A DNA stretch of 39,989 nt from Vulcanimicrobiota bacterium (GTDB lineage: Bacteria > Vulcanimicrobiota > Vulcanimicrobiia > Vulcanimicrobiales > Vulcanimicrobiaceae), in contig JAAXMC010000113.1 in assembly GCA_013036315.1 (NCBI GenBank), forward strand, positions 534-40,522. Reading direction: 5' to 3'. The translations under genes and the position numbers were made by a program. Numbering within the stretch: position 1 is the first letter of the stretch; each line of letters starts with the position of its first letter. The notes beneath the pieces were generated by a model. It saw only the letters and a list, made by a program, of their open reading frames with translations, did no database searches and was not told the origin of the DNA. Of this stretch, positions 405 through 25,255 are shown in pieces.

Positions 405-3400
405 TTACATCTTCACTTGGAAGTAGAATACGAAGCTCCGGATGCCGCTGGGCGTATCGATATACGCATTGGTGCCATGGCGTAACGGTCCGTAGTTTCC
501 TATCATGCCAAATTGCGGGAAGGCATATCCCGTGGCGTTTTGACCCGTCAGCGGTCCGCTGATGCCATTGGCGAGCGGCTGCCAGCGGCCGTTCAACGAC
601 GGTCCGCCATAGATCGCACCGAAGAGATTGAAGACCTCCACGCCGGCGCTCCAAGTCTTGGGTGCGTTGTATTCGACTGTCAGGTTGGTGGTTGAACTCG
701 GATTCGAGAGTTTGCCCCCGTTGGCCGCCTGCATCGGAATTCCGCGGTTGGCCGCGATGTTCGGATTAAAGACCGAACCGGGGTTCATCGGATCCACGTA
801 TTGGCCCGTGCCCGTTGTGGAGCAGCCCGGGCATGCGTTTGTAAAGGGCAGATTGACCGGTTGCCCGTTGACGAATGCCGAGGTGATGAAACCAGGACTG
901 ATCGGATACCCGATGTTCCATTGGGTTTGGGGCGAGATCCGCCAGCCGTTGTGCGTTTGGTACGAGAAGTCGAACGACGCTACGAACGGTGAGAGGAAGC
1001 CGACGCGGTAGACGTTGCCGAGCAGCACGGACTGGGCGGGAATCGAGGGATAGAAGTCTTCGCTGCTCGATCCGGGGATGACGCTCGAGAATTCGTTCTG
1101 ATACGTGAAGCTGACTTGGCCCGAGAAGCCGTAGGTCTGCTCCTTCGTGAACTGCGCCTCGACGCCGGTAACTTGGTTCTTGCCGAGGTTGTTCGCCACC
1201 GAGGGATTGAAGATGATCGCGCCGGTAATCGGGTTGAGCAACACGATGCCGCCGACGATCTTCGGCGTCGCTACGAGCGCTGTTTCGTCTTGCGCCTTGC
1301 GATAGAACGGCGTTACCTTGAACGAGACGCCGTTCATGAAGCCGCGCGTGAATTGGTGTTCCCACGAGAAGTCGGCGTTGACGAAGACCGTCGGACGCAC
1401 GGGCTGCAGCGGAACGCCGCCGGCAAAGTTCCGGGCGTTATCCCAGTACAATTGCTCGGCGTAGTTTGAACAGGTCGTATCGTTCAGCACTCCGCAAGCG
1501 GCTCCGCCGGCGAATCCGTTCGCGCCCAATGCGTAGCCCGGCAGGTTGAAGAACTGGCCGCTCGGACCGCCGTAGTAGTTCGGGTTGGCGGTGACGTCGA
1601 CCAATGCTAACGTCGGGAACTCAACCGACCGGCCCCACGAAGCGCGAAGTGAATCGTTGGCTCCCAGGCGGTAGGTAGCAGCCACGATCGGCTCGGGAAT
1701 AACCGGCCGGCGTGACTGATTGTTGAGTTGCGGGAAGGTCGCGACCGGGCACTGCCCCGCCGGAGCGGTTGTGACAACGCCGGTAACCGGGTTGCGATAC
1801 GTCACTTGCGGCGGCGTGAGCCCCGCTTTTTGCGTGCTCGGGAATGTCAGCAGATTGCCGTTGCTATCGGTTTGATAAGTGGGAAGATAGAGCGACGTGC
1901 AGGTTGCCGGATCGATGGCCGCGTTCGGGTAGTTGTAGTTGGCGCCGTCGACGCGCAATCCGCCTTCCAGTTTCAGTTTGTCGTTCGGCGACCAAGTGTC
2001 GTCGAGGTAGACCGCCCAATCGTGGCGTTCGACCGACGTGTTCTCGTACGCGTCCGGAATCGTCTGCGCAGTGGTTGGTGCAGTCGCTCCGCCGACGTAC
2101 GGCCCACTATAGATGTAGCCGCATCCGCCGGCTCCCACCGTTGCGCATTGCGCTGGTGTCGCGAAGTCGAACTGCTCTCCGTTCGAAAACATCGTGTTGA
2201 TGAATCCGTAGACGTTCGCCGGAGCATCGAAGACCGGGCGCAGGTACTTGAATTCGGCGCCGGCCTTGAAGAGGTTCTTATCGCTCATCTGTCGCGTGAA
2301 GTCCATTTTGTAACCGGCCGTCTTGCCGCCTTGCAACTGTTGACGGGCCGAGTTGAACGACGAGTAGCCGCCTGCCAGCGGCAGATCGAACGTGACGACC
2401 GCGTTCAAGCTGTAAGCCATGGCCTCAAGCACGCTCGAACTGTTGATGTTCCAGATATAGCCGAGTTTGAATGCGTAGTTCGGCTGGTAGTTCGTTTGCG
2501 GCCGCACGTTCGTCTGGCCCAATGATTCGTCGGCGAACGTCTGGCCCGGATACAGGTTCTCGAGGCTCTGAACGAATGTCACGCCCGCCGTCGGGTTGAC
2601 CGTGTAACCATTGCAGCTCAGCGCCGTTGGGCATGAGGCTGCGCTGAGGGCCGGAATCGGCAGCCCGGAGGCCGACAGCTCTTGCTGGAGCGTGAACATG
2701 TCGCACGTTGCGTAGCACAGGTTAGTGAAGCCGTTGAAGCCGCCGTAACCCGTGAAGAAGCTGTTGTTGGCAAGATCGGTGAAGAACTGAATGGCTTGGT
2801 TGTTGTTCTTGCCAAACTTGTAAACTGCGTTGCCGAGAAACTCGCGTTTGGTCTGATAGAGACGCGAGAAACACGTGCCTATGAGCAGGCAGTTCATCGA
2901 AGTCGTGTTGTAAGCGCTGTTTTGGTTGTTGTCCGACAACGCCATATATGCGGAGATGCGCCCGTTCGGCGAGGCAAAACCCCATTCGAGGTTTGTTTGG
3001 TGACGGAATGCAGGTGCGCCTACCGCAAATTGTCCCGTCGCAAAGCCCGGATATGCTCCACGCTTGGCAATCAGATTGAAGGTACCGGTTCCGTAGTTAT
3101 CTTGCGACGCGTTGCCCAGACCCGGCGTCAACTGCGCGCTCTGCAGGCCCAAGCCCGGAACGCTCAGCGAGTTGGTGAACTGGTTGGTGAATGCGTCGGT
3201 GTACGGAATGCCTTCGAATTCGAAGTTCTCTTCGTTCTCGCGGCCGCCCCGGATAACCGGATAGCCGCCCGTATCGAACGAGCCGCCCGGCAGCGACGTG
3301 ATGAGCGAAGATTCCGCGAGGTTCAGCGACGTACCCATGATCGTTTGGACTTGATGCTGGGTGACGCTGTACGTGTTCACCGTTTGATTCGGCTGAAAAG

Positions 3401-3812
3401 CCCCGCCTGCACTGCGTGAGGTCACGTGCGCGATCGTGCGCAGCGATTTCACCAGCGTCGTGCTGACGTTCGTCGATAAATCGGAGAAAACGTTTTGACC
3501 GGGAATAGAGACCGGCTCGTATCCCGTTAAGGTGAACGATACCGAGTATGTGTCGGGCGCAACGCCCGCTATGGAATAAAAGCCTTTACCATCGGTTGTT
3601 GCCGTGTAGCTGCCCGTCGGCGCTTTCGCGACGATTTGGACGCCCGCCAGTGGTGCCTGCGTTGCGGAATCCGTAGCGGTTCCGCTTAGGATCCCCGTGG
3701 TTCCCGCCAACGCCGGCGCGCAGGTTTGTACGAGCAACAGGCTCGTGATAAAAAGTGCTGCGAACAAATGTAAAATCGTCCGCGCACTTTGCTTGCCATG
3801 AAAAGAGCTCAT
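405..3812 (-). CDS. TonB-dependent receptor, Oar-like, with carboxypeptidase-regulatory-like domain
   Basis: This is an outer-membrane receptor of 1135 residues. Residues 1-36 are a signal peptide ending ALA. Residues about 39-115 form a carboxypeptidase-regulatory-like beta-sandwich (pattern GTATDSATQAPLAGVQI, then DGKGFYSIAGV). A plug region of about 130-250 follows (ESSLITSLPGG, GGYPVIRGGREN), and the rest is a long Asn/Tyr/Phe-rich beta-barrel ending in the aromatic strand FVFYFQ. This order (regulatory-like domain, plug, large barrel) is that of Oar/SusC-like receptors, which import bulky ligands using TonB-ExbBD energy; the ligand cannot be told. The ATG at 3810-3812 is preceded by AAGGGA at good spacing. 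The downstream lipoprotein gene begins 9 nt after the stop. No ExbB/ExbD genes are in the window. Confidence 0.92.
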   Translation of the reverse strand: MSSFHGKQSARTILHLFAALFITSLLLVQTCAPALAGTTGILSGTATDSATQAPLAGVQIVAKAPTGSYTATTDGKGFYSIAGVAPDTYSVSFTLTGYEPVSIPGQNVFSDLSTNVSTTLVKSLRTIAHVTSRSAGGAFQPNQTVNTYSVTQHQVQTIMGTSLNLAESSLITSLPGGSFDTGGYPVIRGGRENEENFEFEGIPYTDAFTNQFTNSLSVPGLGLQSAQLTPGLGNASQDNYGTGTFNLIAKRGAYPGFATGQFAVGAPAFRHQTNLEWGFASPNGRISAYMALSDNNQNSAYNTTSMNCLLIGTCFSRLYQTKREFLGNAVYKFGKNNNQAIQFFTDLANNSFFTGYGGFNGFTNLCYATCDMFTLQQELSASGLPIPALSAASCPTALSCNGYTVNPTAGVTFVQSLENLYPGQTFADESLGQTNVRPQTNYQPNYAFKLGYIWNINSSSVLEAMAYSLNAVVTFDLPLAGGYSSFNSARQQLQGGKTAGYKMDFTRQMSDKNLFKAGAEFKYLRPVFDAPANVYGFINTMFSNGEQFDFATPAQCATVGAGGCGYIYSGPYVGGATAPTTAQTIPDAYENTSVERHDWAVYLDDTWSPNDKLKLEGGLRVDGANYNYPNAAIDPATCTSLYLPTYQTDSNGNLLTFPSTQKAGLTPPQVTYRNPVTGVVTTAPAGQCPVATFPQLNNQSRRPVIPEPIVAATYRLGANDSLRASWGRSVEFPTLALVDVTANPNYYGGPSGQFFNLPGYALGANGFAGGAACGVLNDTTCSNYAEQLYWDNARNFAGGVPLQPVRPTVFVNADFSWEHQFTRGFMNGVSFKVTPFYRKAQDETALVATPKIVGGIVLLNPITGAIIFNPSVANNLGKNQVTGVEAQFTKEQTYGFSGQVSFTYQNEFSSVIPGSSSEDFYPSIPAQSVLLGNVYRVGFLSPFVASFDFSYQTHNGWRISPQTQWNIGYPISPGFITSAFVNGQPVNLPFTNACPGCSTTGTGQYVDPMNPGSVFNPNIAANRGIPMQAANGGKLSNPSSTTNLTVEYNAPKTWSAGVEVFNLFGAIYGGPSLNGRWQPLANGISGPLTGQNATGYAFPQFGMIGNYGPLRHGTNAYIDTPSGIRSFVFYFQVKM

Positions 3813-3955: not shown

Positions 3956-7864
<3,909 letters not shown>

Positions 7865-9681: not shown

Positions 9682-9703
9682 GAGCGGCTCATGCAAGCCG
9701 CTC
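9682..9703 (-). terminator. 8-bp hairpin over the stop of the reductase gene
   Basis: GAGCGGCT (9682-9689) pairs perfectly with AGCCGCTC (9696-9703) around a 6-nt loop. The gene's TGA stop lies at the stem-loop junction. The run after it on the minus strand is only TCTTGGG, so if it terminates it does so without a proper U-tract. Confidence 0.5.
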
Positions 9704-10615
9704 ACGCCCGTGCGGCGCACCCAGGTCCAGCAGCGGCCCAATCGGCACGATCCGGGTCGGGTTTATCTCTTCGTGCGTCATATAATAGTGACGCTTGATG
9801 TGATCGAAGTTCACGGTTTCGGCGATGCCGTCTTGTTGATAGAGGTCACGCAGATAACCCCAAAGATTGGGGTAGTCGACGATGCGGCGCAGGTTGCATT
9901 TGAAATGACCATAGTAAACGGCGTCAAATCGAATCAACGTCACGAACAATCTCCAATCGGTTTCAACCGGATGCTCCGCGATCAAGTAGCGCCTTTTTTC
10001 GAGACGCGTTTCCAGTTCGTCGAGTGTTTCGAAAACGCGATAGGCCGCTTTTTCATAGGCGCGTTGCGACGTAGCGAATCCCGCGCGGTACACGCCGTTG
10101 TTCACGGTTTCATAAATCAGTTCGTTTAGCGCGTCGATCTCGGCGCGGTGCGGCGCCGGGTAGAGGTCGATGTGATTTTTCGCCAGCGGTTCGAAGCCGG
10201 TCTCGAACGCCCGCATGATGTCGTCGTCGGAGTTGTTGACGATGCGCTTGGCCTGTTTATCCCATAGCACCGGAACGGTCACGCGGCCGCGATAGTCCGG
10301 ATCGGTGGCTGTATAGGCCTCGCTCAAAAATTCGAAACCGTTGACCGGGTCGCGCGAATAACCCGGCCCGTCCCGGAATGCCCAGCCACGGTCGTCGCGT
10401 ACGGGGTCGACGGCACTCATCCCGATCGCGTCTTCGAGTCCTTTGAGTTTGCGCGCGATCGCCGTCCGCGAAGCCCACGGGCACGCCCATGAAATGTACA
10501 AATGATAACGGCCCGCTTCGGGAAGAATCGGTTCCCGAAACGCGTCGCCCTGGCGCTGAAAAGCTCCGTCACCGCTTTGCTCGTCGGGGAACTGTGGCTT
10601 GACCGGCGCGCTCAC
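9689..10615 (-). CDS. yqjG: Glutathionyl-hydroquinone reductase (xi-class GST)
   Basis: This enzyme of the YqjG/ECM4 family, 308 residues, reduces glutathionyl-hydroquinones to free hydroquinones using glutathione. The family signature is clear: the ISWACPWASR segment carries the catalytic Cys45 in the CPWA motif, VTVPVLWDKQAKRIVNNSDDDIMR is the thioredoxin-fold glutathione site, and the helical C-terminal domain has the conserved LIRFDAVYYGHFKCN and YPNLWGYLRDLYQ. The start is GTG at 10613-10615, 3 nt after the stop of the oxidase-ZIP gene, so the two are translationally coupled. Cytoplasmic; no signal. Family recognition is strong; its pairing with the oxidase suggests quinone or metal-oxidation stress. 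Confidence 0.93.
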   Translation of the reverse strand: MSAPVKPQFPDEQSGDGAFQRQGDAFREPILPEAGRYHLYISWACPWASRTAIARKLKGLEDAIGMSAVDPVRDDRGWAFRDGPGYSRDPVNGFEFLSEAYTATDPDYRGRVTVPVLWDKQAKRIVNNSDDDIMRAFETGFEPLAKNHIDLYPAPHRAEIDALNELIYETVNNGVYRAGFATSQRAYEKAAYRVFETLDELETRLEKRRYLIAEHPVETDWRLFVTLIRFDAVYYGHFKCNLRRIVDYPNLWGYLRDLYQQDGIAETVNFDHIKRHYYMTHEEINPTRIVPIGPLLDLGAPHGRERLA

Positions 10616-10618
10616 GCG

Positions 10619-12502
10619 TTAGCCGCCGTTGAGATCCACGACGATCTCAGTTGTTAAGGCGATCAGAAAACCGCAGGCGAGCATCGAGGTGACCAGCGGC
10701 GTGATGCCGACGTTTCTGCGCAAGACCGCCCAGATTTCACCGATCACGAAAACCAGCGCGCCGATCGCCGTTGCCAAAAACAGCACGGAGAGCACCGGGG
10801 ACTGAAACGAATAGCCGACGATCGTTCCAAGAAACGTCGGGCCGCCGGCGACGAGTCCCGCTAAGCCGAGCTGCGCCCACGATGGGATGACGCGCCCTGA
10901 CAGCGGCGCCGCGATTCCGAATCCCTCGGTGGCGTTGTGCAGCGCGAAACCGACGATCAGGCCGACCGCGATCGCCGTCGCGCCGCTAGCCGCCGAAGCG
11001 CCGATCGCCAAGCCTTCCGCAAAATTGTGCGCGCCGATGCCAACCGCGATGACTGCGGCAAGCACCAGCGGTTGCTGCACGCTCGAAGCCGCGCGGCTGC
11101 TCAAGCGATGAGCGAGGATCCCAAGCCCAACGAGTCCGACGAATAAGCCACCCACATACGCGCTTGCGAGCGTGACTATACTCCACGGCGCGCCGCCGCT
11201 GTGCCAAACCCGCGCAGCCGCAATGAGCGGCGTCGTCGCGCTTCCCGCAATCTCCACGACGAGATAAACCAGGATACCGATCGCGATCGCATTCAGCGCG
11301 GCGATGGTCGCAGGCGAAACATTGCGCATGCGCGCGACCGGCAGCCCCAGGAAGATCGTCAGGCCGGCAATTGCCCCAAGGAAGACCGTCCAGCCGAACG
11401 GCAAAGCGCCCAAGGACGCGCTTCCGAAGCTCGGCAGCATCGCGCGCATCGCTTTGTTCATCGCCGCGCCGGTGTAGGGCGTCCCTTCATAATGAATGGC
11501 CGTCACCAAGCCGTCGGGCATGCCCGTCGCGTCTTCTGTATGATCGATCACGTGACAGTGAACGATCCACGTGCCGGGAATTTGGTTGGCGTCGACGATC
11601 ACATCGACGCGCTGTCCGGGTCCGAGCAGGACGGTGTCTTCGATATCCCGATATGTGACGGGTTGCGCGTCGCGCGCCACGATCCGTTGATAGTGGCCGT
11701 GGGTATGCATCGTGTGCATGTTTTCGCCCGATATGTTGATCCAGCGAATCCGCACGCGCTGCCCTTTGCGCACTTCGATCGGCGCCGTGTACGGATACTC
11801 TTTTCCGTTGATCGTAAAATGATTTTCGCTCAGGCTTTGGATCGCCCAGGACGAGAGTACTTCCACGTAGTCACGATCGGATCGTTCGGCCGCCGAGGGA
11901 TGCGCCGGCAGCACGACGATCGCGCCGTACAAACCGCTGTTGACCATCTCTTCGTTGTCGTGCGAGTGGTAGATGAACGTGCCGGGAGTATCGGCCGGAA
12001 AAACGTAGCGGTACGACTGCCCGGGCATGACCAGCGGCTGCGAAATGCCGGCGACGCCGTCCATGTTTACCGGGATCTCGTGGATGCCATGCAAATGCAC
12101 GGTGTCCGGCGTGCTTTGCTCGTTGCGGTAATCGATTATCACGCGATCACCTTGACGAACGACCAGCGTCGGACCGGGAACGACGCCGTTGTAGGTTTTT
12201 GCCATGACGGTGAGGCCGGGTTGCAGCGTCCACGGCGCGTCGCGCTCGACAAGATGGAAAGTGCGCGTCCTTCCGCGGTTCACTGCAATCGCGCCGAACG
12301 TACCGTCTGCGCGCCGTACGAGCCGCGACTCGCCGGGCGCCGGTGTTGCGACGGGGATGCCGCCCCCCAACGGCTGCATGCCGACCGTGGCGGGATTAAC
12401 TCCGGCCGTAACCTCGTCCGTGCCGGCCAAACCGGGCGCGGCTGCGAGAGCCAGGAGCAAGCCCAAAGCGAGTAAGCCTCGCCTGACTAAGAAATTCGGC
12501 AC
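10619..12502 (-). CDS. Fusion of two-domain multicopper oxidase and ZIP-family metal transporter
   Basis: One uninterrupted frame of 627 residues. Residues 1-26 are a signal peptide. Residues about 90-200 form a first cupredoxin domain carrying trinuclear-copper ligands H136LHG and H179SH. Residues about 210-340 form a second, with the HTMHTHGH ligand set (263-270) and H315CH...H321, which supplies the type-1 copper Cys316; Met328 is a possible axial ligand. No Cys is present in the first domain, so type-1 copper sits only in domain 2, as in two-domain oxidases that work as trimers. From about 365 to the end there are about eight membrane helices with both ZIP metal-site motifs, H492NFAEG and H522NATEG. 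The oxidase should be periplasmic and tethered to the permease. The likely substrates, Fe(II), Mn(II), Cu(I) or phenols, cannot be told. Start GTG; the reductase gene follows 3 nt downstream. Confidence 0.9.
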   Translation of the reverse strand: MPNFLVRRGLLALGLLLALAAAPGLAGTDEVTAGVNPATVGMQPLGGGIPVATPAPGESRLVRRADGTFGAIAVNRGRTRTFHLVERDAPWTLQPGLTVMAKTYNGVVPGPTLVVRQGDRVIIDYRNEQSTPDTVHLHGIHEIPVNMDGVAGISQPLVMPGQSYRYVFPADTPGTFIYHSHDNEEMVNSGLYGAIVVLPAHPSAAERSDRDYVEVLSSWAIQSLSENHFTINGKEYPYTAPIEVRKGQRVRIRWINISGENMHTMHTHGHYQRIVARDAQPVTYRDIEDTVLLGPGQRVDVIVDANQIPGTWIVHCHVIDHTEDATGMPDGLVTAIHYEGTPYTGAAMNKAMRAMLPSFGSASLGALPFGWTVFLGAIAGLTIFLGLPVARMRNVSPATIAALNAIAIGILVYLVVEIAGSATTPLIAAARVWHSGGAPWSIVTLASAYVGGLFVGLVGLGILAHRLSSRAASSVQQPLVLAAVIAVGIGAHNFAEGLAIGASAASGATAIAVGLIVGFALHNATEGFGIAAPLSGRVIPSWAQLGLAGLVAGGPTFLGTIVGYSFQSPVLSVLFLATAIGALVFVIGEIWAVLRRNVGITPLVTSMLACGFLIALTTEIVVDLNGG

Positions 12503-24064: not shown

Positions 24065-25255
24065 TCACCCGGCCTTGACAGTCGAGCCAGAGCCATTCGC
24101 TCCACAGGCTGACACCGCGGAACTCGCGGCGTGAAAGAGATTTTGTGCGGCATTCTCATCCCGATCATGCTCGCTCTTGCATGCTGCGCAGGTCCACCGG
24201 CGGACACCAAACCGAAGATCCTTGTATCTGCTCGAGCACGACGAACAAATTCTCGAGGACGGAAACCAACGATCGGCCACGACGACTGCTCCTCCCTGCA
24301 TCTTGGCCTTGTAGAGTAACTGGCGCCTAAATTCTCCCCACCCCAAGTCGCTAATCGCTAAGGAGAGATGGCGATTTCTGAGCAAGCCCGCGACATTGAT
24401 ATCCTCTATACCAACGACGCGAAAACTCCGCACGAGCCGCGTTGTCAATTGATGCAAGGCGTCGGTGCGAATATCACCAATGCGGGCGTGCAATCGAGCA
24501 AGCTTGGTTTTCGCCTTGCGACGATTGCATGAGCCCTTGACTTTCCTTGAAAGCGACCTATTGAGGCGGCGAAGCCTACCTATTAGCCGACGAAGCGGCT
24601 TGGGCGCAAGTATCTTGGTGCAATTTTGGCCATCCGCCACGGTAGCAAAGGTCGTAATACCTAGGTCGCAACCGGCGATCGCGGTATCCGTACGGCACGG
24701 AACAATGTGGGCCACTTCGACCGCTACAGCGGCGTACCAACGATCGGCTTGCCGGGAAACCGTTATGGATAGGATCCGTCCGTCGAATCGGACGGCCTCG
24801 CGCATCCGAATCCACCCTACGCGCGGAAGCCTGATCCGGCGGCCCTCCGTTGGAACACCATTTGGGCGACTTCGTTCCGGACCACTGTCCGCGCGAAAGG
24901 AATCGCGCAGGCCTTTTCGCTTTAGCTTAGGTTTGCGGACACTTCGCCAGGGGAGTTTGCCGTCCTGAGCCATACGAATATCGGCAAAGTAATTGGAATA
25001 CGCTCGACCTAGGTTCTTAATCGCTTGCTGGGGAGCATTTTTCGTAACCTCTCGCATCCAAGGGTACTCCACATCCTTGATCGAGTTCAATCTCCGACGC
25101 AACGCAATTTCGGATCGAGGTTCGCCGGTTGCAAACGCGCTTTCCCATTCCACTAACGCCCAGTTATACGCAAATCGCGCCACACCGCAGGCGCGGCAAA
25201 AATACTGTTCTTGTCCGCGCGTTGGTTGAAGGCGGATTCGATGAGTTAGTACCAT
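24065..25255 (-). mobile_element. tnpB: TnpB (RNA-guided nuclease) of an IS200/IS605- or IS607-type element, no TnpA
   Basis: 396 residues, full length. The N-terminal helical region includes FCRACGVARFAYNWAL and MREVTKNAPQQAIKNLGRAYSNYFA. The RuvC-like nuclease carries AGCDLGITTFATVADG (Asp197), VGIEDINVAGLL (Glu284) and the C-terminal DRDENAAQN (Asp364/366). The zinc ribbon has Cys337, Cys340, Cys356 and Cys359. All catalytic positions are present, so a programmable single-guide nuclease could be active. No tnpA lies in the window. The region is less GC-rich than its surroundings, consistent with acquisition. Residues about 125-133 (GPERSRPNG) look like an inserted short-repeat peptide, because relatives run straight into the IRLPRVGWIRMRE strand. 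Start ATG at 25253-25255. Confidence 0.88.

Follow-up and report, generated by a model that had tools for sequence, protein, structure and literature searches.

The stretch of DNA analysed here (the window, 39,989 nucleotides from a Vulcanimicrobiota bacterium) encodes a single polypeptide, a divergent ZIP carrier whose N-terminus is covalently joined to a two-domain multicopper oxidase (MCO) of type B that is predicted to be extracytoplasmic. We tentatively propose that this protein is anchored in the membrane as an iron-repressed metal importer and that the oxidase tethered to it is probably a ferroxidase. The substrate of the oxidase and the coupling of oxidation to transport are inferred. 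The features of the gene and its product are collected in Table 1.

Table 1. Features of the MCO-ZIP fusion gene and its immediate surroundings in the window; residue numbers are those of the fusion protein
Feature	Position	Strand	Remarks
Predicted operator TTAGGCGTGCCGAA	12495..12508	(-)	11/12 to TTAGGC-NN-GCCTAA; overlaps GTG start; DtxR/IdeR-type single-dimer box
MCO-ZIP fusion CDS	10619..12502	(-)	627 aa, GTG start
Signal peptide region, residues 1-26	12425..12502	(-)	From sequence; helix 4-19 at N-terminus of model
Cupredoxin domain 1, residues 80-200	11903..12265	(-)	T2/T3 ligands HLHG and HSH; without T1 Cys
Cupredoxin domain 2, residues 208-341	11480..11881	(-)	HTMHTHGH, HCHVIDH; T1 site H263/C316/H321
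Linker, residues 345-368	11399..11470	(-)	Mostly low confidence; pLDDT 56-58 over residues 351-370
ZIP domain, residues 369-624, 8 transmembrane helices	10631..11398	(-)	Pfam, profile, structure models
ZIP TM4 motif HNFAEG	11012..11029	(-)	Canonical Pro replaced
ZIP TM5 motif HNATEG	10922..10939	(-)	Canonical Pro replaced
GST-fold protein (GST_N_2, GST_C_2)	9689..10615	(-)	3 bp downstream of fusion

The first-pass annotation had read oxidase and carrier as one frame and had named two findings that would refute this reading, namely a missed stop or frameshift between the halves, or homologues in which the halves are always separate genes. Neither applies. The minus-strand ORF has no internal stop between its GTG start and its stop, many assemblies made independently of one another show an open frame, and a full-length fusion in one frame was found in 65 of the 149 genomes of the phylum that were searched (identity 45-86%), two of the 65 being flagged with one in-frame stop. 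An assembly artefact or a missed stop was therefore rejected as an explanation. A fusion restricted to the genus of the window was likewise rejected, since the fusion-carrying genomes belong to three families (f1, f2 and f3). In the ZIP tree the fused members group as a single clade (support 94/97), with standalone short ZIPs of Actinomycetes as its neighbours, and the simplest account is one fusion event in the ancestor of the class. In a search of 198 genomes of Actinomycetes no full-length fusion was present among the matches listed, oxidases and short ZIPs being matched separately, and none was found in the 15 genomes reached through the gene pairs described below. Within genus g37 the oxidase half occurs without a recognisable ZIP half in G118 (L200) and in one copy from G123, and the fusion frames of two drafts (G120 and G127) are broken in draft contigs. 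The oxidase-only copy of G123 (L203, G123:C430) has what looks like one membrane segment at its C-terminus.

The copper and ZIP motifs proposed from the window all lie at the residues claimed for them: H136LHG, H179SH, H263TMHTHGH, H315CHVIDH, H492NFAEG and H522NATEG. A Pfam search of the protein returned Cu-oxidase_3 at residues 92-199 (3e-32), Cu-oxidase_2 at 227-324 (2e-23) and Zip (PF02535) at 473-584 (2e-6, 27.8 bits, under the curated gathering score of 35.1). The two cupredoxin domains had been credited with a full copper set. The ligands are present, and the one correction is that the type 1 (T1) copper belongs to domain 2 only. In a ligand-pattern test eight trinuclear-cluster histidines are shared between the two domains, and the T1 site is confined to domain 2 (HSH/HTH in domain 1, HCHxxxH in domain 2). 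Since the pattern as a whole (HLH, HSH; HxxHxH, HCHxxxH) places the T1 copper in domain 2, the oxidase is, by its ligands, a type-B two-domain MCO. The two-domain MCOs 2zwn and 3g5w (33-34% identity) share the fold and the pattern of trinuclear ligands, but their T1 cysteine is in domain 1, whereas in the fusion it is in domain 2 and a membrane transporter is attached.

Judged from profile and predicted structure, the assignment of the C-terminal half as a ZIP is secure despite its sub-threshold Pfam score, because the subfamily profile matches BbZIP at 4e-10 and because BbZIP entries are the only significant PDB matches (E<0.001) of the AlphaFold model of this half (pLDDT 93.9; TM-score 0.61-0.69, normalised to query length). 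In the model of the entire protein (pLDDT 81.6, pTM 0.56) there are a hydrophobic helix at the N-terminus, two cupredoxin domains and eight membrane helices, in agreement with the original estimate of about eight, as well as a poorly resolved linker at ~350-368. The original placement of the oxidase outside the cell is also supported. The carrier resembles BbZIP/ZupT-type ZIPs in its 8-helix fold and in retaining H, N and E in the motifs of TM4 and TM5. It differs from them in bearing an oxidase at its N-terminus, in the loss of the HNxPEG proline, which is missing from both motifs in this ZIP subfamily, and in the M2 ligand E240 of BbZIP, which appears in the profile alignment to be Thr556. 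The loss of the motif prolines and, apparently, of the M2 Glu leaves room for an altered selectivity.

Alignment of the fused sequences indicates that the metal sites of both the oxidase and the ZIP are under strong constraint. Across 64 fused sequences the tested copper ligands are invariant, with one H315Q as the sole exception, and so are the H, N, E and G of both ZIP motifs; H263, H266 and H268 are likewise invariant in a 41-sequence alignment. Cys316 and His321 of the T1 site and the M1-type ZIP ligands H492, E496, H522 and E526 show no variation in the fused sequences, and all 41 aligned relatives match both oxidase families and Zip (Zip at E<=0.001). This conservation bears on the idea of a laccase whose substrates are phenols, hydroquinones or siderophores and for which the ZIP serves chiefly to hold it in the membrane or to supply metal. 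Such an enzyme would fit with two-domain laccases being the best structural matches of the oxidase half, with the g37 copies that retain the oxidase without the ZIP, and with the gene for a GST-fold protein just downstream in the genus of the window. However, the transport-site residues of the ZIP, which an anchor would not need, are as highly conserved as the oxidase ligands, and the same partner family is associated with the oxidases in several ways. We consider a laccase of this kind improbable.

The link between MCO and ZIP is backed independently by a reverse fusion and by adjacent genes in about ten phyla and in haloarchaea, all of which we count in favour of the proposed importer. A plasmid of Deinococcus sp. 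KNUC1210 carries a fusion of opposite order, ZIP first and oxidase second (L032:7923-9755), in which one trinuclear His of HCH is replaced by Gln (LQCH). In the ZIP tree and in the MCO tree alike, the half concerned groups next to its counterpart from the window family, with long branches, and both domain orders fit an N-out/C-out ZIP with the oxidase ending up outside. A search whose query was an alignment mostly of paired ZIPs gave 80 loci, and in 78/80 of these an oxidase gene lies upstream on the same strand, mostly abutting or overlapping, a figure that characterises this paired subfamily and not ZIPs generally because the first query sequence was itself a paired ZIP. The remaining two loci start at a contig end. 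The pairs come from Actinomycetota, Bacillota, Gemmatimonadota, Acidobacteriota, Chloroflexota, Armatimonadota, Planctomycetota, Methylomirabilota/NC10, Pseudomonadota and Poribacteria, and an MCO-ZIP gene pair is also found on haloarchaeal plasmids. The oxidases of the unfused pairs are of a different type, with the T1 Cys in domain 1, and branch apart in the MCO tree; the association therefore appears to have arisen, or to have been re-wired, more than once. The two-gene modules (L040-L119) are sometimes near Rieske, TatA, CDF or P-type ATPase genes.

Upstream sequences strongly indicate that transcription of the fusion is under a DtxR/IdeR-family repressor acting at a predicted TTAGG-N4-CCTAA operator on the start codon. 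By comparing upstream regions between loci we recognised the palindrome TTAGGC-NN-GCCTAA, which is present at at least 10/12 near the start (offset -82 to -6) in 50/53 fused loci, as against 1/966 control windows and 0.4% of shuffles, and which is partly fitted to the fused loci because it was first noticed in some of them. It holds in families whose flanking genes differ. In our reading, TTAGG-N4-CCTAA has the half-site spacing of one dimer in the 19-bp IdeR box TTAGGTTAGSCTAACCTAA (consensus from PMC10317159). Upstream of the window gene the 19-bp IdeR consensus proper did not score above shuffles. An exact-box scan of 15 genomes for a broad iron regulon gave only four occurrences, three of which adjoin the fused gene or the operon it belongs to, and no regulon emerged. 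The fusion family thus has in common with the actinobacterial IdeR/DtxR regulon a start-proximal TTAGG-N4-CCTAA with the dimer spacing of the 19-bp box, but here the palindrome is that of a single dimer and, in the scanned genomes, its exact form is found almost only at the fusion gene. In many genomes (the window, L003-L008, L013 and L142-L147) the operator includes the start codon (TTAGGC-RTG-CCxAA), so that the first codons (V/M-P-N/K) look constrained by it. A position over the start codon fits repression; start-overlapping DtxR sites and leaderless transcripts are reported in Corynebacterium glutamicum (PMC1382209), and repressive boxes at the start site suit uptake genes (PMC10317159). 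Related palindromes of at least 10/12 occur upstream of 16% of unfused pairs versus 0.3%, a weaker enrichment than at the fused loci. By eye, IdeR-like boxes also lie just upstream of standalone short ZIPs of Actinomycetes (L173, L175, L177, L178, L179 and L036), suggesting that these too are an iron-regulated ZIP family.

The genes next to the fusion point in the same direction. At most f3 loci the gene immediately upstream of the fusion encodes a DtxR-family protein, and as a rule the two genes overlap or nearly do; in one f1 genome (L139) such a gene lies directly downstream. The selectivity residues of these fusion-adjacent regulators are Met/Cys in 10/10, within the set Met/Cys/Glu/His that selects for Fe(II) (PMC10317159). 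A DtxR-family gene is also found within ~2.5 kb at 43/88 loci of the unfused type, among them the tight regulator-MCO-ZIP three-gene run of Rhodococcus sp. WAY2, and the residues of the 43 pair-adjacent regulators are Asp/Glu in 25, Asn/Glu in eight and Asp/Asp in six. Met10/Cys102 are the residues of iron sensors (PMC10317159), and Asp or Asn with Glu those of MntR (PMC10317159, PMC4805248). By these residues the regulators are split, iron-type beside the fusions and mostly manganese-type beside the unfused pairs, and the module is therefore not iron-specific everywhere. The Met10/Cys102-type regulator beside part of the fusion family is a further likeness to the actinobacterial IdeR/DtxR regulon. 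In the genus of the window DtxR proteins are encoded away from the fusion and have Glu for Met at the first selectivity position (Glu/Cys); none was found in the window genome (1.67 Mb in 134 contigs), which is 57%-complete. The first-pass annotation had allowed either uptake or denial of entry, and of these iron-repressed uptake is favoured because of the IdeR-like operator at the start and the adjacent iron-type DtxR regulators.

Efflux or detoxification, in which the ZIP would release metal and the oxidase would trap it outside in oxidised form, has a precedent in animals, where ceruloplasmin provides ferroxidase-assisted export for ferroportin, and exporters sometimes neighbour the paired modules. 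ZIPs generally move metal into the cytosol, however, and a start codon covered by an IdeR-type box is the layout of iron-repressed, not iron-induced, genes (PMC10317159), and we regard export as very improbable. In ammonia-oxidising archaea the two-gene MCO1-ZIP pair has been proposed to acquire copper (PMC7785015, PMC7819960), with the oxidase making Cu(II) from Cu(I) and the ZIP importing Cu(II). Copper limitation of Nitrososphaera viennensis gave a modest rise in MCO1 (log2 FC 0.81) and the adjacent permease (1.33) (PMC7785015). Compared by its published description, the archaeal system is alike in associating a two-domain MCO with a ZIP permease, but it consists of two genes and is discussed as copper uptake, whereas here there is one chain, with an operator and neighbouring regulators that speak for iron. 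Those regulators are DtxR/MntR-type and not copper regulators, the operator is IdeR-like and the archaeal model is itself a proposal, and copper uptake by the fusion seems to us most unlikely. In the open-access literature searched, we found no paper that describes the fusion, its reverse-order counterpart or a DtxR/MntR link. The earlier statement that no protein of this layout has been characterised agrees with this as far as the fusion is concerned, but the archaeal two-gene pair is already known; what is new here is the regulation of the fusion.

A different division of labour is that the ZIP imports Fe(II), Mn(II) or Zn(II) while the oxidase clears a competing or toxic reduced metal, for example Cu(I), at its mouth, for protection or selectivity. 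ZIPs carry M(II), the M1-type ligands are invariant, and the pairs accompany manganese-type regulators and sometimes CDF and P-type ATPase genes, as would suit a role in metal homeostasis at large. Yet in the neighbour tally no copper-responsive regulator is regularly associated, DtxR/MntR-type regulators being found instead, the fused gene has an IdeR-like box, and the need for a covalent linkage of oxidase and carrier is left unexplained. We consider this arrangement unlikely.

In the iron-repressed importer that we tentatively favour, a DtxR/IdeR-family repressor on the start-codon operator would lead to the protein being produced when iron is scarce. The oxidase may then serve as a ferroxidase where the carrier opens to the outside, Fe(II) being oxidised at the T1 copper and electrons passing to O2 at the trinuclear centre between neighbouring subunits, and the iron would be delivered to the ZIP pathway or enriched there. 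The fusion would thus do the job of yeast Fet3 and Ftr1 with a ZIP permease, and the covalent tether would set the oxidase:permease ratio at 1:1. The comparison with yeast is one of working: both have an extracellular MCO and a permease, but here the permease is a ZIP and not FTR1, there is a single chain, and the two-domain oxidase is obliged to oligomerise. Two-domain oxidases are trimers and ZIPs are usually reported as dimers, which poses a symmetry puzzle. ZIPs also normally carry divalent ions, so that a ferroxidase acting before transport is unexpected; it would either feed a modified ZIP with Fe(III) or serve another purpose, such as Cu(I) removal. It is possible but doubtful that the MCO oxidises iron and channels it straight into a ZIP that has been remodelled for the oxidised ion by the loss of both prolines and the M2 Glu.

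FeoB and FTR1 (PF03239) were not detected in 20 near-complete genomes of the class, and Nramp is present in all 20, a background that we count towards the importer reading. As five of the 20 have no fusion match, and these also are without FeoB and FTR1, the fusion is not the sole possible iron route. The GST-fold gene lies beside the fusion only in the genus of the window (the window and two other genomes), and by eye its product resembles glutathionyl-hydroquinone reductases. Elsewhere on the minus strand the window encodes a protein that resembles TonB-dependent receptors and has a CarboxypepD_reg domain at its N-terminus (405-3812), adjoining rpoB (3956-7864), and an OrfB/IS605-type (TnpB-like) protein with a Cas12f1-like TNB domain (24065-25255).

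The fusion, the opposite-order fusion and the conserved adjacency in many phyla amount to Rosetta-stone evidence that two-domain MCOs and a divergent ZIP subfamily cooperate. The split between iron-type and manganese-type regulators challenges the copper-uptake reading that comes from ammonia-oxidising archaea. If iron is indeed channelled in oxidised form, no ferric-type ZIP would have preceded this one, and the protein would be a one-polypeptide bacterial functional equivalent of Fet3-Ftr1. The fusion offers one protein in which the bacterial coupling of metal oxidation with membrane transport may be probed.
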